Below are positions 1 through 30,634 of a DNA stretch of 64,000 nucleotides, piece after piece (position 1 is the stretch's first letter; the number at the start of each line of letters is the position of its first letter). The DNA lies in contig JABHCC010000010.1 in assembly GCA_018669475.1 (NCBI GenBank), forward strand, positions 1 to 64,000, written 5' to 3'. The notes beneath the pieces are model-generated. The model was not told where the DNA came from. It did no database searches and saw only the letters and a list, made by a program, of their open reading frames with translations. Source of the stretch: Bacteroidota bacterium. GTDB taxonomy: Bacteria > Bacteroidota > Bacteroidia > Bacteroidales > UBA12481. Made by a program: the position numbers and the translations under genes.

Positions 1-74
1 ATAAAGATATTAAAAAAAAAGGTATTTCATATTAAATATGATATCTGTTTGACGAACAGACATTAACTATTTGA

Positions 75-683
75 TCAATGGTGTAATGGAATTTTAAGAG
101 CTATAATAGCTTTATTAAGCTTATGCCAATCTTCAATCTGCTCCTCACGTGATCGAATCAATCTAACTAATCTACTAGTGCGATATAGTGGAAACAACTT
201 TCTACCATACCATTCCGTATTTTTGCCTACTGCTGAACTCATGGAATTACACCCATGATTCTCAATAATTTTAAGTGCTTTTAATGCCTGAAATCCAATG
301 GTGCATACAATCTTAGGATTAAACATATCAATCAAATGTTTAAGATTTCCTGCACAATGATTTCTTTGCAGGGTCGTAATAGGATGCTTGCTTGCAAATC
401 TTTTGGGTAGGCACAGAACACTTTTGGTAATGAACAAATCCTGAATATCACACCCCGGTACTTCTGTATACATCATGTTAAAAAACTCAATAGAAGGATC
501 AGTATCAGGATTAATGGTTAGATAACCTTTAGCGGGATCATAATTAGGTGCTTCCAACACGAACAATAATTCGGTATTTCTAGGTTTGGTTTTCTGTATA
601 ATTGGAAATGCTCCAGAATCAAGAATAGAATGATCACGGCACAAGCTGCATCGACTTATTTCGTCTATATAAGATTCCCACAT
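75..683 (-). CDS. Divergent uracil-DNA glycosylase superfamily protein
   Basis: The 202-residue product has four cysteines (C12, C15, C91, C110) spaced much like the [4Fe-4S] ligands of type 4 uracil-DNA glycosylases; the canonical family member at 30039-30632 has C16, C19, C88 and C104. The segment LFVLEAP at about 40-46 sits where family 4 has the GEGPG water-activating loop, so that motif is altered here. CTIGFQALKAL at 127-137 matches the family's core strand and helix. It probably binds DNA or uracil through an iron-sulfur UDG fold, but the changed active-site loop makes glycosylase activity uncertain. It lies on the distal side of the neighbouring recombinase and may be cargo of that element. 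Confidence 0.6.
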   Translation of the reverse strand: MWESYIDEISRCSLCRDHSILDSGAFPIIQKTKPRNTELLFVLEAPNYDPAKGYLTINPDTDPSIEFFNMMYTEVPGCDIQDLFITKSVLCLPKRFASKHPITTLQRNHCAGNLKHLIDMFNPKIVCTIGFQALKALKIIENHGCNSMSSAVGKNTEWYGRKLFPLYRTSRLVRLIRSREEQIEDWHKLNKAIIALKIPLHH

Positions 684-1223
684 TATTTTTAGGCGGTTGT
701 TCTATAAGTAAATCTATGGCTAACTACTTGAATATCTACTCTAAATGCTGATGAATGTGTGAAGAGATGAGATTTTATGTTGAATGTGTGCAGAAGAATT
801 ACAACTGGCATTCAAATATTGAAGATAGTTGGCGGTGAAACATCACCTAGCCTTATCTATCGATCATTTATCATGAGAAAAGCTTTCTATTTCTTCTATG
901 GAAGCCTTTTTCAATCTAAATCGCTTACTCTCAGTGCTTAAAAATTTCCTGAAGTTATTCCTCACATTATACTTTACCCAAATAAAGTGAAAAGTTTGAA
1001 AAAAAACAGATTAATAATAGTTTAGCTGTCTGACTAGTGTAGACACTTCAACCACAGGTCAGGATCTCAATAATCAAGTTTTGGTTTTGGTCAAATCAAT
1101 TTTCGTTTTTATGTATCAAGTCCTTGAAATTATGAGATTTTAACTTGAGGCCAGAACTTAATTCCACATTTTATATCGGGCTATTTTGAAATCCTTGGCA
1201 CTGACAGTCCATTCCTTTTATCC
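684..1223. other. AT-rich gap with one coding-like remnant
   Basis: No complete gene is visible. On the minus strand from about 1000 to a TGA at 864-866 there is an open stretch whose translation contains VRNNFRKFLSTESKRF, with coding-like composition and no obvious start. It vaguely resembles the core-binding helices of tyrosine recombinases, so it may be the tail of a decayed integrase or of another gene. The rest looks like ordinary AT-rich intergenic DNA. Confidence 0.25.
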
Positions 1224-2435
1224 TCATCCCAACAATTGATCAGTAAACATCCTCTTCACCTCATCATCAAAAGATCCTAGATAGCTCTCCGTTGTGCTCA
1301 AATTAGAATGCCCTAGTTGCTCTGAGATAAACTCCATTGATGCCCCAGATCGCTTTAAAATGGTTACATGTGAATGACGTGCTACTGATGTTGTCACCTT
1401 CTTTGTAATACCCACCTTTTCGGCAATAATCTTCATCCATTTATTTGTCACGTGGATGAATTGCCCGTAAGATTCGATTTGCACCTCCAATGTCGTATTT
1501 GGTTTTAAAATCGGAAACACAAACTCCTTAGGTTCCGCCGAACCACTCCCCCACTTTTCAATTACTTTTTGAGCATATTCATGAATTGGAACATGGACTG
1601 GCTTTTGCTGTGTTCTGCTTGTTAATTTAGTTTTTGCACGGATAAAAGTGATGAAGCCATCTTGCAAGTTCTCATTTCTCAAATAGGCAATATCCTTAAA
1701 ATTCATCCCACCACAGAGGTAACTAAAGAACCAAAAATCTTTTGCCCGGTCTTCGAATGTTTTCGGCTTTGGCTCATATAAAAACAATTTATTGATCTCC
1801 TCCATTGTAAGAGACTTCTTAATATTCTTTGAAGCGGGAATGATATACTTCCTCCGTCCAAATGGGTAGTGATCCCTAACTGCAAGGCCTTCATCAATGG
1901 CGATGTTATAAATGGATCTAAGGGATCGCATATGAATTCCAACGGTTGTCATAGATCTTCCTCGCTCTTCCATCCACGCTTCGTATTCGCGCAAGAATCC
2001 TGGATTCAAATCAGCTAACTCGGCATCACTTCTGAACTTTTTAAACGAGTTGCGAATGGATTGATAAGACAAGGCTGTCTTCACTCTTCTTTCTTTTTTC
2101 ATCTGGTCGATGTACAAAGTGAACCGATCATACAGTGACCGACTTCCTCGGGCTGGATCTCCTTGGTATTTTTTTTCAAAATCATAGAAGGAAAAACGGT
2201 CCATTTCTGAGGTGATTTCTTCGGCCCAAACCAGGGAACGAAGCAATTCCATCTGTAGATTTTTATTCTTCCCAGCTGCTGCCGGATCCATGATTCGGTC
2301 AAATTTTTCCTCCGTCATGTACTTTCCCAGTGGGTAGTACTTCTGTCGACCCTTGTGTGTAACTCTCAGTTTTACAGGGTACTTACTGTCATTTGTAATC
2401 CTTCTTTTATCACAAATTATTGCTATTTTTGCCAT
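1224..2435 (-). CDS. Tyrosine recombinase / integrase of the Bacteroidota type
   Basis: A site-specific recombinase of about 403 residues. The N-terminus (MAKIAIICDKRR) is the arm-DNA-binding domain typical of Bacteroidota integrases, followed by a SAM-like core-binding domain (around SYQSIRNSFKKF) and a C-terminal catalytic domain with ARHSHVT, LGHSNLSTTESY and the nucleophile tyrosine. The first catalytic arginine position reads GMNFKDI, so arginine I appears to be replaced, as in IntDOT-like enzymes. I chose the ATG at 2435 because it begins the conserved MAKI segment; an upstream in-frame start at 2471 would add 12 atypical residues. The gene points away from the tRNA-fragment site at 2691 and has repeated TTTGCATA sites upstream, the usual integrase-attachment arrangement. 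Confidence 0.9.
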   Translation of the reverse strand: MAKIAIICDKRRITNDSKYPVKLRVTHKGRQKYYPLGKYMTEEKFDRIMDPAAAGKNKNLQMELLRSLVWAEEITSEMDRFSFYDFEKKYQGDPARGSRSLYDRFTLYIDQMKKERRVKTALSYQSIRNSFKKFRSDAELADLNPGFLREYEAWMEERGRSMTTVGIHMRSLRSIYNIAIDEGLAVRDHYPFGRRKYIIPASKNIKKSLTMEEINKLFLYEPKPKTFEDRAKDFWFFSYLCGGMNFKDIAYLRNENLQDGFITFIRAKTKLTSRTQQKPVHVPIHEYAQKVIEKWGSGSAEPKEFVFPILKPNTTLEVQIESYGQFIHVTNKWMKIIAEKVGITKKVTTSVARHSHVTILKRSGASMEFISEQLGHSNLSTTESYLGSFDDEVKRMFTDQLLG

Positions 2436-2447
2436 AAATAGTCCTTT

Positions 2448-2682
2448 TTTGCATATATGTATGCAAATCAAATATACGGATTAATTTGCATACATTGCAA
2501 TAGTCATAGTGGTTCTAGAGGATTTCATTTGCATATAATTTGCATATTTTTGTCTGAGTAAGCAAGATTTAATGGAATAAAACAAGACGAAATTGGCAAA
2601 ATTATCAACAGCTTAACCCATTGAACCACTGCCTAATACAGGCAAATAAAACCAAATTAAATTAAATAATAATGTATGCAAA
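2448..2682. promoter_or_regulatory. Candidate recombinase arm-type binding sites
   Basis: Six copies of TTTGCATA or its complement lie at about 2448-2455, 2460-2468, 2485-2493, 2528-2535, 2539-2546 and 2674-2682, in both orientations, between the recombinase start and the tRNA-fragment core. Their placement suits integrase arm-type sites and possibly autoregulation. Two further copies, at 4843-4851 and 5069-5078, follow the second tRNA fragment. The role is inferred from position and repetition only. Confidence 0.5.
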
Positions 2683-2690
2683 AAAGGACT

Positions 2691-2730
2691 GTTAATCAGA
2701 GGGTCCCTGGTTCGAGTCCAGGATGAAGCG
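2691..2730 (+). repeat. tRNA-Asn-like 3' fragment, copy 1 (attachment-site core)
   Basis: The sequence starts in a CT-GTT-AA anticodon loop, continues with TCAGA and GGGTC, and forms an intact T-arm (CCTGG, TTCGAGT, CCAGG). Seven acceptor bases ATGAAGC and a G discriminator follow. The anticodon GTT and G73 suggest tRNA-Asn. The upstream AAGGA does not pair with TCAGA, so the 5' half is missing. This is what remains when a tyrosine recombinase crosses over in the anticodon loop of a tRNA gene. Confidence 0.75.
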
Positions 2731-2742
2731 CGCAGATTATGA

Positions 2743-2776
2743 AACACTTACCTTATAAAACGGGTAAGTGTTTTTT
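2743..2776 (+). terminator. Rho-independent terminator after tRNA fragment 1
   Basis: A perfect 10-bp stem AACACTTACC/GGTAAGTGTT (2743-2752 with 2763-2772) is followed by a run of six T. The same stem and loop recur at 6601-6634 behind tRNA fragment 3, so the terminator was copied along with the tRNA 3' end. Confidence 0.85.
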
Positions 2777-2866
2777 CGTTTTGGGTGGGAGTTGCAAAGT
2801 TTACGCAAACCATGCTAGGGTTTGTACTTCATTTTGTAGTACTTCAGTATTTCCAAAATACCCATA

Positions 2867-2962
2867 TTAAAGGTATGATCTCGAAAGAAATAATTCTATC
2901 TGCTCTTCAAGAGTTATAACCCACTCTTCATGAGGAGTATGCGGTGGATAGAATTGGCTCAT
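2867..2962 (-). CDS. Small ORF of 31 residues behind a partial leader repeat
   Basis: An ATG at 2962 opens a 31-residue frame (MSQFYPPHTPHEEW...) ending in TAA at 2867. It is preceded by the GTGCGAGCTCCATCCG core that also stands in front of five full genes in this window, which is the only reason to list it. The product is not recognised; it could be the truncated start of a lost gene. Confidence 0.25.
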   Translation of the reverse strand: MSQFYPPHTPHEEWVITLEEQIELFLSRSYL

Positions 2963-2990
2963 TTGTCGGATGGAGCTCGCACATACAAAG
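2961..2990 (-). repeat. Leader repeat, partial copy (R1)
   Basis: On the minus strand it reads CTTTGTATGTGCGAGCTCC and then ATCCGACAAAT, matching the gene-proximal core of the repeat described at 19177, 21110, 31682, 36918 and 58708. The distal part is not conserved and the start-codon arm of the hairpin is absent. Confidence 0.6.
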
Positions 2991-3010
2991 TGTATCTGTA
3001 AAATATTCAG

Positions 3011-3145
3011 TTGTCGATGAATCGTATTGCTGAGTATATTGATGGTTATGTATTTGCTGATTTCAAGAAAAACTATAAAACAGTTGGCGCAGTAATCAGA
3101 AACTTTGAGATAATCGGCGAGGCGGCAAAAAGTCTTTCAATACAA
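3011..3145 (+). pseudogene. Truncated HepT-like (DUF86) toxin remnant
   Basis: The frame reads MNRIAEYIDGYVFADF and later AVIRNFEIIGEAAKSL, the central helices of the HepT/DUF86 family of HEPN-domain toxins. The usual first 20 or so residues and everything after EAAKSLS are missing, including the C-terminal RxxxxH catalytic motif. The frame then runs antisense into the end of the beta-lactamase-like gene, so the break near 3145 is probably an insertion or deletion junction. No MntA-type nucleotidyltransferase partner is seen. It is not expected to be functional. Confidence 0.65.
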
Positions 3146-3156
3146 ACACTCAAATT

Positions 3157-4509
3157 TTATTTTATCATTCTCGCACGATTAATAATTCGTCCATCCACGT
3201 TTCTTTTCTGTATTTCTATATTATTGTCATTGTCTAAAATAAAATCATACTTTATTTCAGAATATTCTTGAAAAAATTTACCCTCTGCTTCGGGATATAA
3301 TGTAAATGTTCCTATTCCATCACCAGCTACTTTTATGGCGCCTGCTTCTTTAGAAATAGAAACAATTAGACCTCTTCCATATTGATCTTGATACTCACCT
3401 ACATATTTTTCTAAAATTTCATTCGATAGAGTTACTCTTTCGGGAATATTAGAAATCTTGTATATACAATCGAAAATTTCATCCCCAATTATTTCTTTAA
3501 TAACATTCTCCCAAATTGATCTCCCATTATCACCATTAGTAAAAACGACTACACCTCTTTTTGAGTGCGGCAGGAATATACATACGGCATTTACACCATT
3601 ATCTGTGCCTCCATGAACTAGTGCATACTCTCCACCAGGCAAATTTCTGACTATCTCCCAACTTAATCCTTGCTCAAAACTTTTTGTTGAATTATTCTCG
3701 GAGCTTATCATCTCATTTAAAATGTCTGCTGAAAGTTCTGAACCATTAATTACATCGATTCCAAATTTACAATAATCTCCAACTGTAGTCAGCAAACTTC
3801 CCGCTGCATTTAGACCATAGCTCTTTGATGTTGCTGGACTATATAAGTTCCCTTTATAGTCATGCCAGAAAGCAAATCTTGATTCATCCATATTTTTATC
3901 CCAATAATATCTGGTATCCTCCATATCGAGTGGTTTAAATAATACAGAATCAGATAATTGCATAAACGATTTTTTGAACTTGCTTTCCAAAGCCTTTCTT
4001 AAATATTCAAATCCTTCTCCTGAATATTTATAATCTGTTCCCGGCTCAAATTCAAAAGTCAATTTCCCTGATTGATTCATACGGCGCCAGTTAGTGAATC
4101 CAGTCTGATGCCTTAGTACATGGCGTGTAGTCAATTTCTTATGCAGTGGATCATTGCTAATATCTGGATCAATCCAGTAATGAAAAAGAGGTTCGTCAAG
4201 ATCCCATTGCCCATTTTCGACTAATTTTAAAGTCAACATTGCCACAACTGGTTTGGTAAGTGATGCTATATTAAATATGGCATTATCTGGTGCAGGAATG
4301 TCCTTTTTAAGTTCTCCAATTACATTTGCGTACTTGACTTTGCCGTCTTCTATTATTCCAATTCCAGCTGCTGGCACATTATTTTCGCTTAACCAATTTT
4401 GCACCTTATTATTAAAATTCAGATCTGATTTAGTATCAATTTGTGCAGTATTACAACTTGTTATTATAACAGCAGAAGCTAAAATTCCTTTTAAAAATTT
4501 CGTAGTCAT
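3157..4509 (-). CDS. Serine hydrolase, beta-lactamase (class C / PBP4-like) family lipoprotein
   Basis: A 450-residue exported protein: the signal ends in VIITSC, giving a lipidated C19. The beta-lactamase fold follows with SLTK (S83-K86) as the SxxK nucleophile motif, YSG at 162-164 in the Tyr motif position, and HGGTDNG in place of the KTG box. A C-terminal extension of about 100 residues resembles the lipocalin-like domain of such hydrolases. Members act as esterases, D-aminopeptidases or peptidases as often as true beta-lactamases, so the substrate is unknown. The gene is alone between tRNA fragments 1 and 2, and its 3' end abuts the broken HepT remnant, suggesting arrival by recombination. 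Confidence 0.85.
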   Translation of the reverse strand: MTTKFLKGILASAVIITSCNTAQIDTKSDLNFNNKVQNWLSENNVPAAGIGIIEDGKVKYANVIGELKKDIPAPDNAIFNIASLTKPVVAMLTLKLVENGQWDLDEPLFHYWIDPDISNDPLHKKLTTRHVLRHQTGFTNWRRMNQSGKLTFEFEPGTDYKYSGEGFEYLRKALESKFKKSFMQLSDSVLFKPLDMEDTRYYWDKNMDESRFAFWHDYKGNLYSPATSKSYGLNAAGSLLTTVGDYCKFGIDVINGSELSADILNEMISSENNSTKSFEQGLSWEIVRNLPGGEYALVHGGTDNGVNAVCIFLPHSKRGVVVFTNGDNGRSIWENVIKEIIGDEIFDCIYKISNIPERVTLSNEILEKYVGEYQDQYGRGLIVSISKEAGAIKVAGDGIGTFTLYPEAEGKFFQEYSEIKYDFILDNDNNIEIQKRNVDGRIINRARMIK

Positions 4510-4703
4510 ATATATTTAGGTTTTAGTTTTTTGAATTTAATACAAAGACGATATAATATATCAAGTGCTACACTTACACTCATGATATCATAAGCGTTGC
4601 GTCTTAGTTAAAAGATTTTCAATTGATTATATTCAGTGGACACTAGTGCTATCGAATAATGAAATTTTCTATGGGCACAGTGAAGTATCTAGGTTGTCGT
4701 ATT

Positions 4704-4792
4704 ATTAATCAGAGGATCCCTGGTTCGAGCTTAGGGAGAAGCGAAGCGAACGATCTCATGAGGTCGAAGACCGGATAGTCTAGGATGAAGCG
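4704..4792 (+). repeat. tRNA-Asn-like 3' fragment, copy 2, with 49-bp T-arm insertion
   Basis: TTAATCAGAGGATCCCTGGTT matches copy 1 up to TTCGAG. The next 49 bases (4730-4778) are an insertion, after which TCTAGGATGAAGCG resumes the tRNA 3' end. The insertion contains CGATCTCATGAGGTCG, which can pair over 7 bp, and AAGCGAAGCGAA. It destroys the T-arm, so this is not a working tRNA end. The upstream half of the tRNA is missing. Confidence 0.7.
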
Positions 4793-4804
4793 CACAGAGA
4801 ATCA

Positions 4805-4840
4805 AACCGTTACGAAGGTCAAACTTGGTAGCGGTTTTTT
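4805..4840 (+). terminator. Rho-independent terminator after tRNA fragment 2
   Basis: Stem AACCGTTAC/GTAGCGGTT (4805-4813 with 4828-4836, one G-T pair), then six T. The stem sequence differs from the terminator behind copies 1 and 3. Confidence 0.7.
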
Positions 4841-5179
4841 CATTTGCATACCTCTGAAAAGTCAGCTAAATTGCCAAAATCATTCATTATTCTCTGTGTT
4901 ACAGATTATTGCATAGCGCATGAAGCCCGACCGCAAAACTGCAATAGCCAGGCTTCATTTCAGGCAAAATTTGCTCCTATATCCCTATGAATAAACTCAA
5001 TACTCAATCCGGCCAAGTGCCTGATCAAGCTCATAACGCTTATAGTAAACTGCTCACTTACCTGTTCTGTATGCAAATATGTACCCGGATTTTGTCCAAC
5101 TATGTAGTAGAAATTCCGACTCCTCAGAGCACCTCATGCTGGAAGTTAAAGCAATAATGCTATGTTGTTGATAAAGTTC
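4841..5179. other. Intergenic gap with arm-site matches and a degenerate direct repeat
   Basis: It contains TTTGCATAC at 4843-4851 and GTATGCAAAT at 5069-5078, the same motif as upstream of the recombinase. It also has a repeat at 5110-5160 that is roughly 70 percent identical by eye to 6237-6287. No gene is visible. Confidence 0.4.
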
Positions 5180-6172
5180 TCAATTTCGCTTATTGATAAG
5201 ATTGACCACCACCTTGGTCATTGTTTCCTTTTCTTCTGGTTTGCTCACGGCAATCATTAATGTGATGGCTACCAAGGCATTGTCAGGAATCCGTTTTCGT
5301 CCGTCTTCATCCCTTAAGGCCCCATTTCTTTCAAGAAAATACAAAAATAGAAATGCGGCAATTCGTTTATTCCCATCGGAAAACGAATGATTCTTTGTTA
5401 TGAAATAGAGAAGGTTTGCTGCTTTTTCTTCAATGCTTGGATAAAGTTCCTTGCCTCCAAAAGTTTGATAGATAGTGGCGATTGAGCTCTGAAACGACTG
5501 ATCCTTTTCATGTCCAAACAAATCACTATTCCCATGAGTCTTTTTTGCCATCAGGATTTGGCTTATTGCTTCATCGTATGTTAATTGGTAAGTCTCCTTT
5601 TCAGATGTATCCTGGATTTCAAGTTTCTGATAATCGTATTGATCCAGGATGTCTAAGGCGTAGGCATAATCTGAAATGATTTTGAGTAGGCCTGTGCTCT
5701 CATCTCCCGTAAGGTTTTTGTATTCTAAAACGTTTCCCAGAATTTTTACAGCTTCTTTTAATTGGCTTAACTCTTTGTTCTGGAGGGATAATCTCTTCTT
5801 ATCAATTGCATATCCTTGTATCAAGTACTCTTTTAAGATTCTATTTGCCCATTTCCTGAATTCGGTACCTCGCTTGGAATTGACCCGGTATCCAACAGCA
5901 ATAATAACATCAAGATTGTAATAATTAACTTTTCTGTGAATTTCTCTTGATCCTTCTTGTTGAACTTGTGCAATTTTTGCACAAGTTGATTCTTTCTCTA
6001 ATTCATCTGACCTGTAAATATTAGAAATATGTTTAGTAATGGAGCTTCGATTAGTGTCAAATAATTCCTCGAGCTGATACTGATTTAACCAAACCGTCTC
6101 ATCTTCAAGTTTCACTTGGATTTCAGTTAAGCCATCAACTGAACTAAATATTTCGATCTTACTGTTTTTCAT
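5180..6172 (-). CDS. RhuM-Fic/DOC fusion protein
   Basis: The 330-residue product has an N-terminal RhuM-type domain (about 8-135), with VWLNQYQLEELFDTNRSSIT and the later FRKWANRILKEYLIQGY signature. The C-terminal Fic/DOC domain carries HSFSDGNKR (H262-R270), which fits the HxFx(D/E)GNxR AMP-transfer loop with lysine in the variable position. Fic domains modify hydroxyl side chains with nucleotides or phosphate; RhuM domains are found in toxins and mobile elements. No separate antitoxin gene is visible; the RhuM half may control the Fic half. It is the only gene between tRNA fragments 2 and 3. Confidence 0.9.
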   Translation of the reverse strand: MKNSKIEIFSSVDGLTEIQVKLEDETVWLNQYQLEELFDTNRSSITKHISNIYRSDELEKESTCAKIAQVQQEGSREIHRKVNYYNLDVIIAVGYRVNSKRGTEFRKWANRILKEYLIQGYAIDKKRLSLQNKELSQLKEAVKILGNVLEYKNLTGDESTGLLKIISDYAYALDILDQYDYQKLEIQDTSEKETYQLTYDEAISQILMAKKTHGNSDLFGHEKDQSFQSSIATIYQTFGGKELYPSIEEKAANLLYFITKNHSFSDGNKRIAAFLFLYFLERNGALRDEDGRKRIPDNALVAITLMIAVSKPEEKETMTKVVVNLINKRN

Positions 6173-6236
6173 GATTTTAATTCAACATAAAGATACAGAA
6201 AGTGATAATTATTATTAGTAAAAAGGAGTCATTAGA

Positions 6237-6287
6237 CATTCCGGAGTCTCTGAGCACCTAATGCCGAAAGCTAAAACAATATTAGGA
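6237..6287. repeat. Degenerate direct repeat (D2) upstream of RhuM-Fic
   Basis: ACATTCCGGAGTCTCTGAGC and the following bases resemble 5110-5160 (D1) on the other side of the RhuM-Fic gene and, more weakly, 8228-8262 (D3). All three contain TGAGCA or AGAGCA followed by CCTAAT-like bases. Their origin is unknown; they could be ends of a decayed element. Confidence 0.4.
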
Positions 6288-6503
6288 TTCTGCTGACATA
6301 CAGGTATTTATATCCAGAATACATTGTTCAATAGATTCCGGAAATAACTGTCCTTTTGAATCATATTGTCCACGTCTAATTGGAGACGACCGGAATCGGT
6401 ATTTTCTTGGATGATTTAGCCCCGATAATCTCTACTTTCAGCAAAGAAGAGAACTAGTTGATGACAAAAACACTCATTACGGGCAAGAAGGTGTTTATGA
6501 TTT

Positions 6504-6588
6504 GTAATCAGAGGGTCCCTAGTTCGAACTTAGGGAGCGAAGAGAACGATCTCATGAGGTCGAAGACCAAATAATCCAGGATGAAGCG
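6504..6588 (+). repeat. tRNA-Asn-like 3' fragment, copy 3, with 46-bp T-arm insertion
   Basis: GTAATCAGAGGGTCCCTAGTT begins the copy. A 46-bp insertion (6529-6574) occupies the same T-loop position as in copy 2 and shares CGATCTCATGAGGTCGAAGA with it. TCCAGGATGAAGCG then completes the tRNA 3' end. As in copies 1 and 2 there is no 5' tRNA half. Confidence 0.7.
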
Positions 6589-6600
6589 CACAGAGAATGA

Positions 6601-6634
6601 AACACTTACCTTATAAAACGGGTAAGTGTTTTTT
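6601..6634 (+). terminator. Rho-independent terminator after tRNA fragment 3
   Basis: The stem AACACTTACC/GGTAAGTGTT and T run are identical to 2743-2776. The following GTTGCAAAGTT also resembles the flank of copy 1, so the duplicated block extends beyond the terminator. Confidence 0.85.
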
Positions 6635-6838
6635 CATTTTAATGGGGTGTTGCAAAGTTCTTGCAAGGTTTTGGGTTGATTTTGTGTGTAGAAAAGACTT
6701 TCTCCGTGCTACAGGAAGTTCTCATCAACAAAACGGAACATCCATCCACAATACCCCCATCTTCAAACAATGCCAACCTAACCATTTCATAATCAAAGAA
6801 TCTATTCCTATATTCAGACCAACCTTAACACCGGAACT

Positions 6839-8086
6839 ATGCATTTAAAGAAGACCTTTTCTCGATTTGGAGTGATTCTAACACTCCTTCTTTCAATTTA
6901 TTCGTGCAATACAACTCAAGATTCATCAACAGATTTGATTACGATTGATGTTGAGAAGGCGTATAATGAGCCCCAGAGGGGCATCAAGTTGAGTGAGGTT
7001 GTTGAGGACATTGAGTATGTGAAGCTTGAAACCAACCCAGAATGCTTGATTGGAAGAGTGTTTGGAGTTGCAATTTCTGACAACTTCATTGCTGTTTATG
7101 GTTTTACTACAAAATCAATATTACTTTTTTCACGATCAGGCGAATTCCTTCATAAAATTGGTAGCGTAGGAAATGGTCCGGGAGAGTATAATTATATTGA
7201 AGGAAAGTCTCTTGATATTATTTCCAATGAACAATACATCATGTTTAAAGATCCCAGTAATACAATCTATTTATACAATATTGACGGATCATTTCATAAG
7301 AAAACTAAAACTCCGGCCAAAAGATTAGACGGATTCGGATACAAAGGAGATGGGCAAATCCTTGCCTATCAGCAAATGCTTTTTTTACCTGAAGGTGGTG
7401 GAAACCAACTTATAACTTATGATTTGAATTTGGATATTATTGATAGCACCTTTTTTTCTACACGAGATACAATATGGGTTCGATTTATGCAATACGCGAA
7501 AGACAACTTCACTATAAATAATGGAGATATTTATTTGCGTTCAAAATTGAATGATACAATCTATAAAGTCCATGAAGATTATTCTACTGAACGATATCTA
7601 TATTTTAAAATGGGATCATTGAAGTCTCCATCTTTACTTGTACCAGGTGAGGAATGGGAGGCAAAATACCTTACTCTTAGTGACATTGCGCTAACTGATA
7701 ACCATGTCTACCTTACTTTTGCAGGTAGGCCAAGAGTTCCACGACCAGATGTATTTGGAATCGAATACTTAGTTTATGACAAAGGAAGTGGTAATTATTA
7801 TTTTCTGGATGATCATCCTAATCTTTATGCTGGTGAGGATAATACGACTTCGGCTCCAATAAATAACCTTGATGGGCTTGATCAAACATCAGAATTTATT
7901 TATCATATCCGAAATGACATTACCTGGGATGTATTAGAAATTGTTAACGCCAAAGAATACCTTGAATCCGACGATTTCGACCCCAGCAAACTCTCAACCG
8001 ACAAATATTACAAAAAGGTTAAGAAATTGCTTGAAGAATCCGACATTGAAGACAACCCGATCATCAGAATCTGTTTTTTGAAGTAG
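6839..8086 (+). CDS. 6-bladed beta-propeller lipoprotein 1
   Basis: A 415-residue lipoprotein with lipobox SIYSC (C23). It shows the family pattern shared by all six paralogs here: an opening strand with YVKLETNPECLIG, a blade with FSRSGEFLHKIG, the loop GNGPGEY, and a C-terminal EDNPIIRICFLK ending. Its role is unknown; such proteins are abundant surface or periplasmic lipoproteins in Bacteroidota. It lies directly after the third tRNA fragment, separated from the other five paralogs by the GH2-GH53, GH172 and yefM-yoeB genes. The ATG at 6839 leads straight into the signal peptide. Confidence 0.85.
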   Translation: MHLKKTFSRFGVILTLLLSIYSCNTTQDSSTDLITIDVEKAYNEPQRGIKLSEVVEDIEYVKLETNPECLIGRVFGVAISDNFIAVYGFTTKSILLFSRSGEFLHKIGSVGNGPGEYNYIEGKSLDIISNEQYIMFKDPSNTIYLYNIDGSFHKKTKTPAKRLDGFGYKGDGQILAYQQMLFLPEGGGNQLITYDLNLDIIDSTFFSTRDTIWVRFMQYAKDNFTINNGDIYLRSKLNDTIYKVHEDYSTERYLYFKMGSLKSPSLLVPGEEWEAKYLTLSDIALTDNHVYLTFAGRPRVPRPDVFGIEYLVYDKGSGNYYFLDDHPNLYAGEDNTTSAPINNLDGLDQTSEFIYHIRNDITWDVLEIVNAKEYLESDDFDPSKLSTDKYYKKVKKLLEESDIEDNPIIRICFLK

Positions 8087-8375
8087 GTATCGATTCTATT
8101 CGGCAGGTGATTTTTTGTTTCTGCACTGTTTCTGACCTGTTTTGGGTGGGCGAAAGTTAAATTTCATTTTTCTATAGTTCATTATCTTCGATGTCACCCA
8201 CAAAAGGTAGTACTTGAATCACCAGATAGACATTCTGGACCAGGTGAGCATCTAATTCCGTAGACCGAGGCAATGTCGGTATTCCTTAGCGATACAGAGG
8301 ATTACCATCCGGAAAGCATTATTCTATTCATATATAAACTTTAATCCCTCCAAAACTCCACCAGCCGGAACATGA
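8087..8375. other. Intergenic gap with degenerate repeat D3
   Basis: Nothing coding is recognisable. Positions 8228-8262 (AGACATTCTGG, then GTGAGCATCTAATTCCG) resemble the repeat at 6237-6287. No clear terminator follows the propeller gene. Confidence 0.3.
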
Positions 8376-8495
8376 TCTTTGTCTTTTAAAGGTGCATGGC
8401 CAAATCGACCTACTTATTACCAGGCTGATGAAGCAAAAGGCTTTGCCGAAAAGTTTTTCCGTATCTTAGAAACAACAAAACAAACTTCAACATGA
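8376..8495 (+). pseudogene. Possible hydrolase C-terminal remnant
   Basis: Between an in-frame stop at 8373 and a TGA at 8493-8495, the plus-strand frame reads FKGAWPNRPTYYQADEAKGF and then AEKFFRILETTKQTST. This resembles the last helix region of esterase-like alpha/beta hydrolases. Its TGA overlaps the ATG of the next gene as ATGA, the arrangement expected of translationally coupled genes whose upstream member has been lost. The family is guessed from a short stretch. Confidence 0.3.
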
Positions 8496-11400
8496 GGACA
8501 TCCATCAGAATAATTTGTGCAATGTGTTTCGTGCTCATTTCTTGCAGTGAAAAGATAGAAGAATCGCAACATCAACGGATCAGGGAGAATATTGACAAGA
8601 GCTGGAGATTTAGCTTCGGACATGCGGGTGATCCGGCCCGGGATTTCAATTTTGGTACGGATCTCCTCTTTGCCAAATCCGGCAGGACCAATAACTCAGC
8701 TATTAACCCTCGCTTTGATGACAGTGAGTGGCGCAAGCTCGATTTGCCCCACGACTGGGCCGTAGAATTACCCTTCGTGGAAGATGATGATAAATACCAT
8801 ACAGCGCATGGATCAAAACCGGTGGGCGGTATGTTTCCTGAGACATCCATTGGCTGGTATCGCAAGCATTTTGATATCCCGGTCAGCGATTCGGGCAAGC
8901 AGTTGTCACTGAGCTTCGACGGGGTGTTCAGAGATGCAAAATTCTGGCTCAATGGGTTTTACCTGGGCACCAATGAGAGCGGTTATATTGGAGTCACCTA
9001 TCCCATTAGTGATTATGTGAACTTCCATGGCGACAATGTGTTGGTTGTCAGGGTCGATGCGACACAGTTCGAGGGGTGGTTTTATGAGGGAGCAGGAATT
9101 TATCGGCATGTGTGGTTGAATATCCGGAATAATGTTCACCTGCCGGATGGGGGAGTTTTTATTAGCACTGATATATCAAAAGGCAGAGGAAAGAGGGCAG
9201 AAATTGCTTCCCGGGCCGAAGTGAAAAGTGAAATTAGTGTTGCTAACTCAGGACTTGAGGATGCATCGGTTCGGGTGAAGTCAATCGTGACGGATAGAAG
9301 CGGCAAAGTGATAGCGCAAGCTATCAGTGGAAAGATGCAAAGCAAGGCTCGTCAAAGACCCATTGTCATCCCCGCAAAGACCGGCTCCAGCCAACCACCA
9401 ATGGCAACATTCACCCACAAAATAAAAACACCCCGCCTGTGGTCACTCGAAGACCCCTACCTCTATCGTATCACCCACATTGTACTGGTGAAAGGCAAAG
9501 AAGTCGATCGGCTTACCACAAAATTTGGCATTCGCGATATTGAGATTGATCCCGATAAGGGATTCTTCTTGAATGGCAAGCACATAAAGATTCAAGGCAC
9601 AAACAACCATCAGGATCACGCTGGCGTAGGATCTGCCCTGCCTGATTATTTACAGTATTACCGGATTCAGCACTTAAAGAATTTTGGTGTGAATGCCTAC
9701 AGGGCGAGCCACAATCCACCTACACCTGAGTTGTTGGAGGCCTGTGATAGTCTGGGTATGTTGGTGATGGATGAAACCCGCTTGATGAATACCAGTCCGG
9801 AGTACATGGACCAGTTTGATCGCCTGATTCTGCGTGATCGCAATCATCCATCGATTTTCATGTGGTGCATTGGCAATGAAGAACAGGATATTCAAACGAA
9901 CTCGCATGGCAAACGCATTGCGCTGACCATGATGCAGCGTCTGAAGCAGCTCGATCCAACCCGCACTTGCACCTATGCGGCTGATTTGGAGAACTACTTC
10001 CCTGGCATCAATGAAGTGATCCCGGTACGGGGTTTCAATTACCGCCATTATGCCCGGGCCGATTATCACCGCGATCATCCTGACCAAGCAGTCATTGGCA
10101 CTGAGATGGGTAGTACAGTCACAACCCGGGGAATATACGAGATAGATTCTGTCAGGGCTTACCTGCCGGATCAGGATCTGAACGCACCCTGGTGGGCAAG
10201 TCTGGCTGAAGCATGGTGGCCCGAAACGGCTGAAAATGATTGGGATCTGGGCGGATTTATCTGGACAGGATTCGATTATCGCGGTGAGCCTACCCCATTT
10301 AAATGGCCGAATATCTCTTCTCACTTTGGGATTCTGGATGTATGCGGATTTCCTAAGAACGTGGCCTATTATTACAAATCCTGGTGGAGCAAGGAAGATG
10401 TGCTGCACATCTCACCGCATTGGAATTGGCCAGACAAAGAAGGGGAAATGATCAAGGTATGGGTGAATTCTAACGCTGATGAAGTAGAGCTGTTTCTCAA
10501 CGGACACAGCTTTGGTAAAAAAACCATGCCCTGCAACAGTCACCTTAATTGGGATGTTGTTTATGAACCGGGTACCCTCGAAGCCATTGGCTGGCGTGAT
10601 GGTCGCGAAATCAGGGCTAAAGTTGAAACTACTGGTCCGGCAGTCAATGTAGCCTGTCTGGTTCACAAAACCACCATGGTAGCCGATGGACAAGATGCAA
10701 CTGTCATCAATGTGCGTCTGGTCGATCAACATGGACGCACCATTCCGGATGCGAATAATCTGATCAAATTCTCACTGGATGGTCCTGGTCGCATATTGGG
10801 CGTAGGCAATGGCGATCCCAGCAGTCATGAACCGGATGTATGTCTGGATGGCAACTGGCAGCGTCACCTCTTCAATGGTTACTGCCAGGTAATCGTTCAG
10901 GCAGGTACCGAACCCGGACCACTAAGCTTCACAGCCACTTCAGAAGGTCTATGGCCTGAATCCAATGGCATTCATCTGGTATCACCCGACTCTTTACTGA
11001 GCTACAATCCGCCTGTCTTCCATCCGGATTCGGTTAAGGTCACCGGACAAGCCAAGATCCTGGGAGCCGACATCTCCTTCCTGCCCCAACTCGAAGCCCA
11101 GGGGATGACCTTCTCTGATAATGGGAAACCTGGTGATCCCCTCGCCATCATGAAGGCACATGGCTTCAATTGGATCCGCTTGCGGATTTTCAACAATCCA
11201 GAAAATGAAAAGGGTTATGCCCCGGGTGAAGGATGGTGTGATCTGGGAAATACACTGAAGATGGCCAAACGCATTAAGGCACAGGGAATGAAATTTCTGC
11301 TTGATTTCCACTACTCCGATTTCTGGGCTGATCCGGGTAAGCAATACAAACCCAAGAGCTGGGAAGGCTTGGAATACCCGGCATTGCGAGAGGCTTTGAA

Positions 11401-11947
11401 ACAGTATACCCAACGGGTAGTCGCTGCCTTAGATGAACAGGGCACCCTGCCGGATATGGTCCAGATCGGCAACGAGATCAACCATGGCATGGTCTGGCCT
11501 GATGGACATGTATGGCATATGGATCAGCTGGCTGGCTTAATCCAGGCAGGCATTGACGGGGTATATGCCGTCGATTCAACGGTTCAGATTATGCTCCACA
11601 TGGCCCTGGGCGGACAGCATGATGAAACTGTCATGTGGTTCGACCAGATGCTGGCACGGGAGATCCAATTTGATATACTGGGATTATCATTTTACCCAAG
11701 GTGGCATGGCGAGCTTGCCGACCTGAAGCACAACATCAGCAAACTGATCACCCGCTATCCCTACCCGATCAATATCGTGGAATACTCGCACATGAAAGAG
11801 GAAGTCAATGATATAGCTTTCAAAGAATTCACAGATCGCGTAAACGGCACCTTCATTTGGGAACCACTCAGCACCTGGGAGAAAATCTTTGATCGGGATG
11901 GGAAAAGTAATCGGTTTATGGAGATCTATGATCAGTACCTGCAATGA
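8492..11947 (+). CDS. GH2 beta-galactosidase-like / GH53 endo-beta-1,4-galactanase fusion lipoprotein
   Basis: A 1151-residue lipoprotein (lipobox VLISC, C18). Residues about 30-330 are the GH2 jelly-roll and Ig-like domains. The TIM barrel follows with WCIGNEE (acid/base E463) and IGTEMG (nucleophile E538), then DUF4982-like and Ig-like domains to about 850. Residues 855-1151 form a complete GH53 domain opening with GADISFLPQLE, with QIGNEIN (E995) and NIVEYSH (E1097) as the two catalytic glutamates. GH53 cuts beta-1,4-galactan internally and GH2 members often remove terminal galactose, so one chain could cut and trim arabinogalactan or pectic galactan. The exact GH2 specificity is not certain. 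The next gene is a GH172-type enzyme. Confidence 0.9.
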   Translation: MRTSIRIICAMCFVLISCSEKIEESQHQRIRENIDKSWRFSFGHAGDPARDFNFGTDLLFAKSGRTNNSAINPRFDDSEWRKLDLPHDWAVELPFVEDDDKYHTAHGSKPVGGMFPETSIGWYRKHFDIPVSDSGKQLSLSFDGVFRDAKFWLNGFYLGTNESGYIGVTYPISDYVNFHGDNVLVVRVDATQFEGWFYEGAGIYRHVWLNIRNNVHLPDGGVFISTDISKGRGKRAEIASRAEVKSEISVANSGLEDASVRVKSIVTDRSGKVIAQAISGKMQSKARQRPIVIPAKTGSSQPPMATFTHKIKTPRLWSLEDPYLYRITHIVLVKGKEVDRLTTKFGIRDIEIDPDKGFFLNGKHIKIQGTNNHQDHAGVGSALPDYLQYYRIQHLKNFGVNAYRASHNPPTPELLEACDSLGMLVMDETRLMNTSPEYMDQFDRLILRDRNHPSIFMWCIGNEEQDIQTNSHGKRIALTMMQRLKQLDPTRTCTYAADLENYFPGINEVIPVRGFNYRHYARADYHRDHPDQAVIGTEMGSTVTTRGIYEIDSVRAYLPDQDLNAPWWASLAEAWWPETAENDWDLGGFIWTGFDYRGEPTPFKWPNISSHFGILDVCGFPKNVAYYYKSWWSKEDVLHISPHWNWPDKEGEMIKVWVNSNADEVELFLNGHSFGKKTMPCNSHLNWDVVYEPGTLEAIGWRDGREIRAKVETTGPAVNVACLVHKTTMVADGQDATVINVRLVDQHGRTIPDANNLIKFSLDGPGRILGVGNGDPSSHEPDVCLDGNWQRHLFNGYCQVIVQAGTEPGPLSFTATSEGLWPESNGIHLVSPDSLLSYNPPVFHPDSVKVTGQAKILGADISFLPQLEAQGMTFSDNGKPGDPLAIMKAHGFNWIRLRIFNNPENEKGYAPGEGWCDLGNTLKMAKRIKAQGMKFLLDFHYSDFWADPGKQYKPKSWEGLEYPALREALKQYTQRVVAALDEQGTLPDMVQIGNEINHGMVWPDGHVWHMDQLAGLIQAGIDGVYAVDSTVQIMLHMALGGQHDETVMWFDQMLAREIQFDILGLSFYPRWHGELADLKHNISKLITRYPYPINIVEYSHMKEEVNDIAFKEFTDRVNGTFIWEPLSTWEKIFDRDGKSNRFMEIYDQYLQ

Positions 11948-12064
11948 AATGACGAGATCGAATTAAAGGCGCTGGTTTGGAATTATCCTGTCACATGGGC
12001 CGGACTGAAGGCACGGCCCTTTTTGTAATTTTCATATACCTTTGTGTGAAATCTATTCTTTTCC

Positions 12065-13348
12065 ATGAAAACCATGAAAACAATACACCTGGTCACAATC
12101 ATAAGCCTTTTCTCACTGCTAAGTTGCCAGAACAATCGGGAAGCCGATTCCTGGAAAATCGGCCAGGAAAAAGAATGGTATAAAGCACCCCCAACCGGTG
12201 TGCATACCCGCTGGGCCAGCCCTGAGAATCCGAATGGAGAACCGGGGAAAGGAGGTACCATCAATAAAGGTGCAAAAGGAAACGCTTTTTATACCATTGC
12301 ACCCGGTGCCAAAAAGGTTTTGCTTGACTATGCAGGTGCAGGAATGATCACCCGAATGTGGATGTCGGGAACCATTGGTCGCAGTGAAGAACAAAGACGA
12401 ATGGTGCGAATTGATATGTTTTGGGATGGGGCCGACAAGCCCGCGGTATCAGCACCAATTGGCGATTTTTTCGGTACCGGACTTGGTCATTTAACCCCTT
12501 TTGACAGTGAACTATTCGCCAGTCCCGAGGGTCGATCTTTCAATTTCACTATCCCCATGCCCTTCAGAGAATCAGCCAAAGTGGTGGTGACCAATGAATC
12601 ACCCTATTACGTGTTGTTCTGGTACGACATAAATTTCATCACAGTCGATCAGCATGCTGATGATGTTATGTATTTTCACAGCTACTGGAGTCGTGATATG
12701 CATACAAAAGTAGGGGAAGACTTCGAGATCCTACCGAAAGTTGAAGGCACAGGCAGGTACCTGGGCACCAATATCGGCGTGATTGGAGATGAGGCCTACA
12801 GAGCTACCTGGTTCGGCGAAGGGGAAGTCAAAGGCTACATCGATGGAGACACTGACCTACCAAGCCTCGTGGGAACAGGTACAGAAGATTACATTGGTTC
12901 AGGTTGGGGTCAAGGTCGATATTTCGGTCGGTATTTCGGATCCTTAGTTTCTGATAATCAAAGAGATTTATACGCCTTTTATCGATATCACCTGGATGAC
13001 CCGGTCTATTTTCATCAAAGCTGTCGCATCACGATTCAACAGATGGGTAACTGTGGGGTGAACCGTTTCATGGAGATAGAAAAATCAGGTGCACCGATTC
13101 AGCTGATTGCCCTCCTCGACACCAAAGGCAATAACATACTGGCCGCCACTGGTCCGAAGCCTGAGTATTTGTGCCTCCTGGATATAGATTCCCTACCGGA
13201 TGTAGCCAGTAAGGATGGAGCCTACTTCTACAGAAGCGATGATGTATCAGCAACGGCTTATTTTTATCTTGATAAACCAGAGAATGATCTGCCTCCCCTA
13301 CCGGATGTGGACATCAGAATAAAAGGAATGAAAGAAAAAGCATGGTAG
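12065..13348 (+). CDS. DUF2961 / GH172-family lipoprotein
   Basis: A 427-residue lipoprotein (LLSC, C21). It has the DUF2961 pattern: a start with THTRW-like GVHTRWASPENP, GAGMITRMWMS, and the highly conserved GTEDYIGSGWGQG that holds an acidic catalytic residue. DUF2961 proteins are assigned to glycoside hydrolase family 172, which includes enzymes acting on alpha-D-fructofuranosyl or D-arabinofuranosyl linkages. Lying 117 bp downstream of the GH2-GH53 enzyme, it may remove furanosyl side chains from the same polysaccharide; that pairing is inference. A second ATG three codons in is an alternative start. Confidence 0.85.
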   Translation: MKTMKTIHLVTIISLFSLLSCQNNREADSWKIGQEKEWYKAPPTGVHTRWASPENPNGEPGKGGTINKGAKGNAFYTIAPGAKKVLLDYAGAGMITRMWMSGTIGRSEEQRRMVRIDMFWDGADKPAVSAPIGDFFGTGLGHLTPFDSELFASPEGRSFNFTIPMPFRESAKVVVTNESPYYVLFWYDINFITVDQHADDVMYFHSYWSRDMHTKVGEDFEILPKVEGTGRYLGTNIGVIGDEAYRATWFGEGEVKGYIDGDTDLPSLVGTGTEDYIGSGWGQGRYFGRYFGSLVSDNQRDLYAFYRYHLDDPVYFHQSCRITIQQMGNCGVNRFMEIEKSGAPIQLIALLDTKGNNILAATGPKPEYLCLLDIDSLPDVASKDGAYFYRSDDVSATAYFYLDKPENDLPPLPDVDIRIKGMKEKAW

Positions 13349-13376
13349 TTTTAAATAAAACTAAAACTTTGCAAAC

Positions 13377-13634
13377 TTATTCATAATGAAATCTGCATTT
13401 GGCAATGTGAATTTCATTGTCTTTGACCTTATAGATGATTCGGTGTTCCTGATCAATTCTTCGAGACCAAAAACCCTGGTATTTGTGCTTAAGGGGCTCG
13501 GGTTTCCCTAACCCAGTATAGGGATTTCTTGAGATGTCTTTAAGTAACTTGTTGATTCTCTTCAACATTTTTGGATTGGTCTTTTGCCAATAGAGATAGT
13601 CCTCCCAAGACTCTTCAACAAAAACATATTTCAT
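13377..13634 (-). CDS. yoeB: YoeB-family toxin (ribosome-dependent mRNA endonuclease)
   Basis: An 85-residue protein of standard YoeB length. E46, R65, H83 and Y84 fall at the positions of the E. coli YoeB catalytic residues, with the ending CRFHYE. YoeB binds the ribosomal A site and cuts mRNA there. The start codon overlaps the last base of the upstream antitoxin, so the two are translated together. The copy looks intact. Confidence 0.95.
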   Translation of the reverse strand: MKYVFVEESWEDYLYWQKTNPKMLKRINKLLKDISRNPYTGLGKPEPLKHKYQGFWSRRIDQEHRIIYKVKDNEIHIAKCRFHYE

Positions 13635-13885
13635 TACTCAATGAGATCTTTGGTAAATGATTCGCCCTTCTTCAATTTGACAATTGCAGAATCCAGCCTT
13701 TCTTCGTTTTTCGCCGAGGATAGCTCATGTCGTGTGGTACACAATGAGTTATACTCATCCAAGGAAATGACAACCACACCATTATCTTTGCCTCGATTAA
13801 TAATAAGCGTTTCAAAATCCTTTGCTACCTGATCTAAATACTTTTTAATATCTTTTCGGAAATCCGAAATTGAAGTAGTTAACAT
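13634..13885 (-). CDS. yefM: YefM/Phd-family antitoxin
   Basis: An 83-residue antitoxin with the Phd/YefM fold: DFRKDIKKYLDQV near the N-terminus for DNA binding, VVVISLDEYNSL in the middle, and an acidic and basic C-terminal tail that would wrap the toxin. It precedes yoeB in the usual antitoxin-toxin order. Two TGTACA sites just upstream suggest autorepression. In the E. coli system YefM and the YefM-YoeB complex bind such TGTACA palindromes. Confidence 0.93.
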   Translation of the reverse strand: MLTTSISDFRKDIKKYLDQVAKDFETLIINRGKDNGVVVISLDEYNSLCTTRHELSSAKNEERLDSAIVKLKKGESFTKDLIE

Positions 13886-13897
13886 AATATATCATTT

Positions 13898-13927
13898 TGT
13901 ACGTTATCTTGTACAAAGATATGTACA
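13898..13927 (-). promoter_or_regulatory. YefM operator: paired TGTACA palindromes
   Basis: TGTACA occurs at 13910-13915 and 13922-13927, 12 bp apart, and a half-matching TGTAC at 13898-13902 lies nearer the gene. E. coli yefM has TGTACA-core palindromes with the same centre-to-centre spacing. The cluster lies 13-42 bp upstream of the antitoxin start. Confidence 0.75.
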
Positions 13928-13993
13928 ATTTAGGCATTATCAAAATCAAACATCAAAAACCCATAACTCATCACATCCACTTCATCACGCATC

Positions 13994-14113
13994 TTAGTTC
14001 TTCAAATAAACTATCCTGACAATCGGATAGTCCTCCACCGATCCAGCTTTATGCAATTCAGCCAACTCTTTACCATGCGGTGTATTCAGCATCCTCTTGC
14101 TAGTTAAAAAGAC
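13994..14113 (-). pseudogene. Orphan C-terminal tail of a 6-bladed propeller gene
   Basis: The minus strand encodes NTPHGKELAELHKAGSVEDY and then PIVRIVYLKN before TAA at 13994-13996. This matches the end of the propeller gene at 15533-16765 (ATPHGKELGELVETSSIEDN, PIVRIVYLKN) in protein and at the DNA level. Only about 39 codons remain and there is no start. It is the 3' scar of a lost paralog. Confidence 0.8.
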
Positions 14114-14351
14114 CTACATCATAAATACAACTCACATACATTTATTAATATCCAGTAATTTATGTGTTTAGTCATTTTGCTTTGATCTGTTTTTTCAATC
14201 TTTGAGGCTAAACTGAATCAGATTATGGCCACCCTCAAAATCATGTTAGACCCCAGGATCCCAAAAAAAAGGACGGAACATGATTGTATATGACAGTTTG
14301 TTTTGGTAGCTTACCTCGCCCCCACGATTATAAAACCTATATCCATTTACT
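14114..14351. other. Gap with a small integrase scrap
   Basis: Besides the integrase N-terminal fragment at 14225-14280, nothing is recognised. The region precedes the propeller gene at 14352 and probably holds its promoter; no convincing TAnnTTTG/TTG pair was found. Confidence 0.3.
14225..14280 (+). pseudogene. Integrase N-terminal remnant with frameshift
   Basis: ATG at 14225 starts MATLKIMLDPRIPKK, the arm-binding N-terminus typical of Bacteroidota tyrosine recombinases. A run of eight A at about 14263-14270 shifts the frame: reading across it in the other frame gives KKKDGT, the expected continuation. Nothing further of the integrase remains, so this is the decayed start of a second mobile element. 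Confidence 0.55.
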
Positions 14352-15506
14352 ATGAAATGCTATTTCTATATCATTTGCTCTCTGTTTCTAATTTCGGGGT
14401 TTGAGTCTTTACACGGTCAAAAAGAACTAATACCATTTGATCTGTCAAGTCAACTTGATAAAAAGGAAACAGTTTTCCTTTCACAGTTTGTATCCGCGAT
14501 TTCGTATGTGCCTTTGGAAACTTCAACCGAGGCATTGGTAGGCAATATACAACAAATCATACCTGCTGGTGACAAAATAATTATTGCCACCACGGACAAC
14601 TCGATTAAAGTGTTTGACTTAAAAGGAAAATTCCTTAACAATGTTGGTAGAATTGGAAAGGGGCCTGGTGAATTTCCAGCTTTTAGAAATGTATTTTGGG
14701 ATACTGATGCCCGTAGAGTTATTGTTCATAACATGGCAGGATCATATCTTCTTTTTTATACTATTAATGGAACCTTTGTAAAAAGATTTAAAATACCATT
14801 TAATACTTTTGATGTCTTCAGAATGCGTGATGGTGTTTTTCTTGGAATTAATAATTTTCCAATTCCAATAGGTTCGGTTTATTCTCAGTTTTTATTATTC
14901 GATCTTAATAACATGGTTAAGCCATTATTGGCTAAGTCATCTGCAAAAGAAATTGTTAGGCCAATGATAACTCATCCCCATTATCATAACAGCTTTGGGG
15001 ATATTGACTATATTGTACAGCCCAGATCAGATACTCTTATTGTATACAGGAATAAAGACATCAGACCATTTGCATCATTCAATTTGCACGATTTGATTGT
15101 CCCCGACAATGTGTATTATAATCACAACATCAGACCACAAGACCTCTATGAATATGTAAGGTTTGGTGGAATAATGCCTATTGATGAAAATAGATTCATT
15201 TATCGTATTAATTATAAAAGGAAAAGTTATTTCATCCTATGCAATATCAAAACAAGAAGCTCTATACCTATCAAAATGGATGAGCAGGTTAAGTTTGGTG
15301 TAACAAACGACATCGATGGTGGCTATCCGTTCCCGTTAACCCAGAATCTGTATGAGAATTCTTACTATGCAGCATTACTTCCATACCGCCTGCTTTCTTT
15401 GCAGGAAAAAGGAGTATTTAATATGGCTGATCCAATTTTTATTAAAATGCTTAAGGGGTTAGAAGATGGTGACAATCCTGTTATCGCAATATATCATTTG
15501 AAATAG
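14352..15506 (+). CDS. 6-bladed beta-propeller exported protein 2
   Basis: A 384-residue paralog. Unlike the other five it has a signal peptide (ending near SLHGQ) without a lipobox cysteine, so it is probably soluble in the periplasm or secreted. YVPLETSTEALVG, the blade VFDLKGKFLNNVG and GKGPGEF mark the family, and it ends GDNPVIAIYHLK. It is convergent with the four-gene minus-strand block that starts at 15533, 26 bp away. Function unknown. Confidence 0.85.
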   Translation: MKCYFYIICSLFLISGFESLHGQKELIPFDLSSQLDKKETVFLSQFVSAISYVPLETSTEALVGNIQQIIPAGDKIIIATTDNSIKVFDLKGKFLNNVGRIGKGPGEFPAFRNVFWDTDARRVIVHNMAGSYLLFYTINGTFVKRFKIPFNTFDVFRMRDGVFLGINNFPIPIGSVYSQFLLFDLNNMVKPLLAKSSAKEIVRPMITHPHYHNSFGDIDYIVQPRSDTLIVYRNKDIRPFASFNLHDLIVPDNVYYNHNIRPQDLYEYVRFGGIMPIDENRFIYRINYKRKSYFILCNIKTRSSIPIKMDEQVKFGVTNDIDGGYPFPLTQNLYENSYYAALLPYRLLSLQEKGVFNMADPIFIKMLKGLEDGDNPVIAIYHLK

Positions 15507-15532
15507 AAAACATCTGTATTATAGCAAACATC

Positions 15533-17898: not shown

Positions 17899-17972
17899 GC
17901 TGTGTTAAGATTATGTTTTAACTCACCGACAAGTAAGTAGGGATTATCATTTTCGTAAACTTCCCGGATGAT
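17895..17972 (-). pseudogene. Orphan C-terminal tail of another propeller gene
   Basis: Just past the stop of gene 5 (TAA at 17977-17979), in another frame, the minus strand encodes TIIREVYENDNPYLLVGELK and then HNLNTA before TGA. It resembles the end of gene 5 itself (ILETLDENDN, LLVGELKKGL). The TGA overlaps the start ATG of gene 4. It is the 3' end of a lost paralog kept in the operon. Confidence 0.75.
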
Positions 17973-17976
17973 CGTT

Positions 17977-19278: not shown

Positions 19279-19399
19279 AGTAAAATAATGAATTCGTTTG
19301 GGGGGGACGGTTCAAGCCTAAAGATAGGATTTTTGAAATTGCAATCCTATAGATGAAAGACGAGAATTTTTATCGGAATTCGGTATTCATTGCAGCTTT

Positions 19400-19440: not shown

Positions 19441-19462
19441 TTATTTATTCTATCCCATGGAA

Positions 19463-19824: not shown

Positions 19825-19831
19825 AGGTATT

Positions 19832-30632: not shown

Positions 30633-30634
30633 TC

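Follow-up and report, generated by a model that had tools for sequence, protein, structure and literature searches.

Probable accretion of mobile elements at a tRNA-Asn gene in a Bacteroidota genome

tRNA-Asn 3' halves, segments and an integrase at the start of a contig

The window, i.e. the whole stretch of DNA that was analysed, comprises bases 1–64000 of a 248-kb contig (C214) from a draft genome of 5.56 Mb in 215 contigs; C214 begins at window base 1. The features at the locus are as follows:

1–2688: element 1, of which the right-hand part alone is present; copy 1 is adjoined by the integrase gene and the P arm, and the contig begins at base 1
1224–2471, minus strand: tyrosine integrase, with Phage_int_SAM_5, Phage_integrase and Arm-DNA-bind_5 domains and with relatives
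2448–2682: P arm, six TTTGCATAY arm-type sites of the integrase between its gene and copy 1
2689–2731, plus strand: copy 1, a tRNA-Asn 3' half from anticodon loop to discriminator
2689–4704: segment A, ~2.0 kb, integrase-less, bounded by copies 1 and 2
2742–2810, plus strand: tail of copy 1, with terminator AAACACTTACC..GGTAAGTGTTTTTT and P'-like repeats TTGCAAAGTTT/ACGCAAACC
3011–3271, plus strand: truncated HepT-like relic in segment A (PF01934, E 2.1e-8; 43% identical over 44 aa to the HepT in a segment of G010)
3157–4509, minus strand: lipoprotein-type serine hydrolase in segment A (beta-lactamase family PF00144, E 2.3e-38)
4705–4793, plus strand: copy 2, a tRNA-Asn 3' half with a 49-nt T-arm insert (4730–4778), then a second acceptor end
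4705–6503: segment B, ~1.8 kb, integrase-less, bounded by copies 2 and 3
4843–5077: P'-arm sites TTTGCATAC after copy 2 (4843–4851, plus; 5069–5077, minus), the same sequence as in the P arm beside the integrase gene
5180–6172, minus strand: RhuM-Fic protein in segment B (RhuM and Fic; full-length match to the PADLOC candidate defence family PDC-S23)
6504–6589, plus strand: copy 3, a tRNA-Asn 3' half with a 46-nt T-arm insert (6529–6574), then a second acceptor end
6590–24700: region C, additional DNA that separates copy 3 from the native neighbours, with beta-propeller lipoproteins, GH2/GH53 and others
6600–6670, plus strand: tail of copy 3, with a terminator and P'-like repeats TTGCAAAGTTC/TTGCAAGG at an 11-bp period
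24760–31684: native tRNA-Asn neighbours (large secreted protein, peptidase-like protein, UDG-like gene, queA-like gene)

The three tRNA-Asn(GTT) 3' halves are direct repeats in the same direction, as an earlier note on this DNA had recognized, and their exact spans are those listed. Its description of each as a plain 3' end, from anticodon loop to discriminator, stands for copy 1; in copies 2 and 3 it had missed the T-arm insert and the second acceptor end. The note was also right that no copy has a 5' half: ARAGORN found no tRNA in the window, Rfam found no family in 1–16000, and the two TAGCTCAG-type matches in the window both lie far from the tRNA halves. A 25-nt core, with ≤3 mismatches allowed, occurs at exactly three places in the 64 kb (0 expected, from 100 shuffles). 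Across the ~5.6-Mb draft the long copies are confined to this array, the sole other match being the 3' part of an intact tRNA-Phe. The earlier note had considered fragments scattered through the genome away from any recombinase; the long copies are instead found only here, beside the integrase.

Copies 2 and 3 are 88% identical over ~100 nt, insert included. So unusual an insert, common to both, looks as if one had been copied from the other, and could suggest a segmental duplication or a dispersed repeat unrelated to the integrase. We regard this as highly improbable: the genome's only copies form one array beside an integrase, the sequence outside the tails differs, and junctions of the same kind stand beside integrases in other genomes. 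A diverged version of the insert (~54 nt, again followed by a second acceptor end) is present in another genus, in G004 (L073, 5930–5983). Simple accretion of elements does not account for this T-arm insert common to copies 2, 3 and G004.

The earlier note had placed a tyrosine recombinase with arm-like sites beside copy 1, and both are there. The integrase gene, for which a likely ATG start gives 1224–2435, carries the expected domains, and the window has 10 TTTGCATAY sites where 2.4 are expected, six of them between the gene and copy 1 (the P arm, at position −183) and two just after copy 2. Arm-like repeats and a transcription terminator are found in the tail of each copy. After copy 2 the first TTTGCATAC site lies at ~+72 from the T-loop, not counting the 49-nt insert. 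The tails of copies 1 and 3 have TTGCAAAG-type repeats, unlike the arm sequence of copy 2; position and spacing suggest that these are arm sites as well, and we call them P'-like. The left end of element 1 and, presumably, the intact tRNA-Asn lie off the contig.

The segments have the lengths given in the earlier note, about 2.0 and 1.8 kb, and the opposite-strand main genes that it named, a beta-lactamase-like hydrolase and a RhuM-Fic protein, were confirmed by domain matches. To its count of one main gene per segment we add the truncated HepT-like open reading frame in segment A. None of the sizeable genes of A and B is a transfer gene. On its PADLOC match, the RhuM-Fic protein is a candidate anti-phage protein; a 64-nt direct repeat (72% identity; 5108–5171 and 6233–6296) flanks its gene within segment B. 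Searching A, B and C with tblastn gave no integrase remnant in A or B, and only matches with E of 0.7 or worse, all in C. No P arm or arm repeats were found in the 300 nt to the left of copies 2 and 3.

Relatives of the integrase and the native tRNA-Asn neighbourhood

Relatives of the integrase (31–45% identity, E ≤ 1e-50) are encoded in 52 of 393 genomes of the order, this genome counted, and 62 relatives were taken from named genomes, almost all of them Bacteroidota. At ~60 of 91 related loci, many with flanks of 1.5 kb, a displaced tRNA 3' half adjoins the integrase gene on the opposite strand; these halves start in the anticodon arm, ~200 nt from the integrase start. The targets include tRNA Asn, Val, Ala, Met/CAT, Pro and others. 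Loci that show both ends reveal simple elements, in which an intact tRNA is followed by 5 to 8 kb, the integrase gene and the displaced half; they are found at tRNA-Val, -Ala, -Asn and others. Further genes in several of these elements are of the HTH_17, AAA/DnaB-like and DUF6371 kinds; a terminase small subunit, a cytosine methylase and a Rep_1 protein are each encoded in single elements.

The arm blocks of the relatives are paired repeats at ~11-bp spacing (TTTGCATAC, TTTGCACAC and similar). After the intact tRNA they lie at +62 to +71 from the T-loop, beyond the terminator, to which the first TTTGCATAC site of the window comes close; beside the integrase gene they lie mostly at −157 to −172, a position similar to the −183 of the P arm in the window. 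A DNA pattern for the left end, composed of a tRNA half and a P' arm, found 28 left ends in the 393 genomes, and the reversed pattern, used as a control, gave one match. Intact tRNAs account for 19 of the 28, junctions without a 5' half for seven, a pseudo-tRNA with a hairpin for one, and the last is cut by a contig end. An integrase gene stands directly to the left at five of the seven junctions, including one in contig C80 of this genome. In C80 (G000, ~18400–19901, L317) the integrase is followed by a tRNA-Val 3' half and then by the P' arm pair TTTGCATAC, near the contig end. A pattern for displaced Asn halves (non-A before CTGTTAATC) matched in 3 of the 393 genomes, which is not an estimate of prevalence since many family members keep the A.

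In the taxonomic family of the host, tRNA-Asn stands beside genes for a secreted protein, a peptidase-like protein, a UDG-like protein and a queA-like protein, and its direction relative to these neighbours varies between genera. The earlier note had proposed looking in relatives for the tRNA-Asn without the segments. Such a site exists in G003: the secreted-protein gene and the tRNA-Asn are 200 nt apart and no element separates them, so that the site is empty. In the window, a 62% homologue of the G001 copy of the secreted-protein gene lies at 24.8 kb. With the native neighbours at 24.8–31.7 kb, the DNA at 6.6–24.7 kb is therefore extra, inserted between copy 3 and those neighbours; this region C probably represents an older element that shows no recognizable right end. 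A 102-nt direct repeat (80%; 13990–14091 and 15529–15630) lies near its beta-propeller genes.

An intact tRNA-Asn was found nowhere in the draft assembly. This absence, in a metagenome-derived draft of 215 contigs, might be taken to mean that unrelated repeat ends had been joined during assembly. We consider such an artefact extremely unlikely, as the array shares a single 248-kb contig with the conserved tRNA-Asn neighbours, whose direction is as expected, and arrays of the same kind are seen in independent assemblies.

Probable serial integration and the possibility of mobile cassettes

Integrases directed at tRNA genes restore the tRNA and displace the old 3' half, giving islands with anticodon-centred att sites (PMC4383910). 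By accretion, decayed elements that keep their att sites can be found in tandem with elements that arrived later (PMC5704250). We conclude that the region very probably arose in this manner, as an accretion of mobile elements by serial site-specific integration at one tRNA-Asn gene. Each tRNA fragment is a junction between tandem elements. The repeats, the arm sites, the anatomy of the integrase family and the synteny support this directly. The earlier note had called successive integration the safer reading, and it is strengthened by the integrases beside tRNA halves in many genomes, the left-end arm blocks, the native neighbours within the window and the empty site of G003.

In such a process the tyrosine integrase would act on the tRNA 3' half of an element in circular form and on the anticodon-loop region of the tRNA in the chromosome, recombining the two. 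The incoming element would bring its own 3' half and terminator, restoring the tRNA, and the old 3' half would be pushed to the far end of the element; every new insertion would thus leave one more displaced half. Copy 1 would be the right boundary of the integrase-bearing element, with the restored tRNA and the left part off the contig, and copies 2 and 3 would be older junctions. Segments A and B would be integrase-less, CIME-like remnants that have kept both core sites and the left-end P' sites. Since the left-end arms in the tails mark the left end of the element to the right, separate insertions gave rise to A, to B and probably to C. The arm type after copies 1 and 3 is not that after copy 2, and more than one element lineage is therefore present. 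We infer this order of events, and likewise recombination, whether active now or formerly. Because P arms are missing to the left of copies 2 and 3, and neither A nor B gave an integrase remnant, the former autonomy of these segments is something that we infer: presumably both once had an integrase, or they could have arrived without one.

The other suggestion of the earlier note was that the tRNA fragment works as a repeated site for gene cassettes. A resident integrase would then act in trans to move small integrase-less units, each with a tRNA tail, a P' arm and one gene; the tRNA half would be the recombination site common to them, somewhat as in an integron. A and B do each have one main gene and no integrase, and the arm sites at the left end of B match those of the neighbouring integrase. 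The arm sequences after copies 1 and 3, however, differ from that after copy 2, and the right ends of both segments lack a P arm.

Other genomes provide observations on both sides. Further members of the host's taxonomic family have arrays of their own, on contig 86 of G004 and on contig 341 of G010, the latter with an intact tRNA-Asn followed by partial tails. In G010 one tail with a nucleotidyltransferase gene stands behind two different left neighbours, as a cassette might; this is consistent with recombination at the core or in the tail, and a mixture of strains in the draft is possible. Short integrase-less segments recur in G397, where a 0.86-kb ORF6N segment with a P' arm lies between two tRNA-Asn halves, and in G227, where a 1.4-kb segment lies between an intact tRNA-Asn and a half. 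The arms of the G397 segment, however, do not match the adjacent integrase, and relatives of the RhuM-Fic protein (56–77% identity; loci L220–L248) have no tRNA halves within ~1.5 kb. Moreover, decay of ordinary elements yields the same picture. A cassette system at this locus is thus unlikely in our judgement: we found no positive support specific to it, and individual segments might still be of that kind. The wider proposal is equally doubtful, namely that integrases of this Bacteroidota family move true mobile cassettes in trans, each made up of one cargo gene with a tRNA 3' tail, a terminator and P'-arm repeats, and that these cassettes are stored in tRNA-gene arrays, often with toxin-antitoxin or candidate defence genes. 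Separately, we considered whether the ORF6N segment of G397 is a simple deletion of the element in G177; gene order and direction differ, and this was not supported.

The related loci showed several further features. A second repeat in the arrays of the family matches the 3' end of a serine-recombinase-like gene without the rest of it (L073 at 7914 and 9974; L076 at 2419, 5473, 6342 and 7411; L077 at ~600; L080 at 3264; L085 at 6454); a longer open reading frame is found in L079 (8492–9238, minus strand). Small genes that by eye resemble GIY-YIG nucleases (L258, ~4567–4945; L122, 2998–3286; L184, 1450–1750; reverse-complement coordinates) have a tRNA-like copy or displaced half on one side and, downstream, a pseudo-tRNA in which a palindromic hairpin replaces the anticodon arm. 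The D-arm of the pseudo-tRNA appears to contain the end of the gene in L184 and L258. Among the papers listed by a literature search, none was relevant to GIY-YIG genes next to tRNA genes in Bacteroidota. tRNA copies in which a palindromic hairpin replaces the anticodon arm or the T-loop were also seen in L156, L167, L120, L160 and L296; they are in tandem in L156 and L167, and in L296 a P' arm follows the hairpin-bearing copy.

Comparison with known elements

Probable serial integration at the tRNA-Asn gene brings the locus close to the tRNA-gene islands catalogued by Islander (PMC4383910), with which it shares a tyrosine integrase, an anticodon-centred crossover, a displaced 3' half and tandem arrays at one tRNA gene. 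The integrase gene lies next to the att site, here beside copy 1 and likewise in the relatives, and copy 1 is the displaced half at the far end of the element. The intact target tRNA at the other end is present in the relatives; in the window the contig starts inside element 1. Unlike these islands, the locus shows no intact tRNA, which presumably lies off the contig; segments A and B are without an integrase, and B falls short of 2 kb. Consequently, both segments would fail the Islander integrase filter, and B the length filter too (PMC4383910).

The resemblance to CIMEs, which form by accretion with ICEs and IMEs (PMC5704250), lies in the loss of integration genes, the retention of att sites and the tandem arrangement with an integrase-bearing element. 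A and B are flanked by att sites, stand between copies 1–3 in tandem with such an element, and have neither an integrase nor transfer genes of their own. Unlike CIMEs, the window holds very short remnants only, conjugation or mobilization genes were not seen in it, and right-hand arm sites of A and B were not found. Integron cassettes are similar in that a recurring recombination site separates short segments of one gene each. They differ in the site, attC in integrons but here a tRNA half accompanied by a terminator and arm sites, and in the integrase, which here has an arm-binding domain; judged from the anatomy of repeat and integrase, the locus appears to have neither attC sites nor an integron integrase. 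Tycheposons are tyrosine-recombinase islands at tRNA genes with variable cargo, described from other phyla. By description only, they are alike in recombinase, tRNA gene and cargo, and unlike in phylum. The name appears in PMC10872708 and others.

The pile-up of islands at tRNA genes is already known; here it is seen in an integrase family with unusually clear binding-site anatomy. Ordinary accretion of islands can thus account for an array that looks like cassettes. The Islander filters do not admit short integrase-less segments, which are therefore uncounted there (PMC4383910). The att anatomy of this widespread Bacteroidota integrase family is now documented well enough for left ends to be found by DNA pattern, and some of the short integrase-less segments, segment B for example, carry candidate anti-phage genes.
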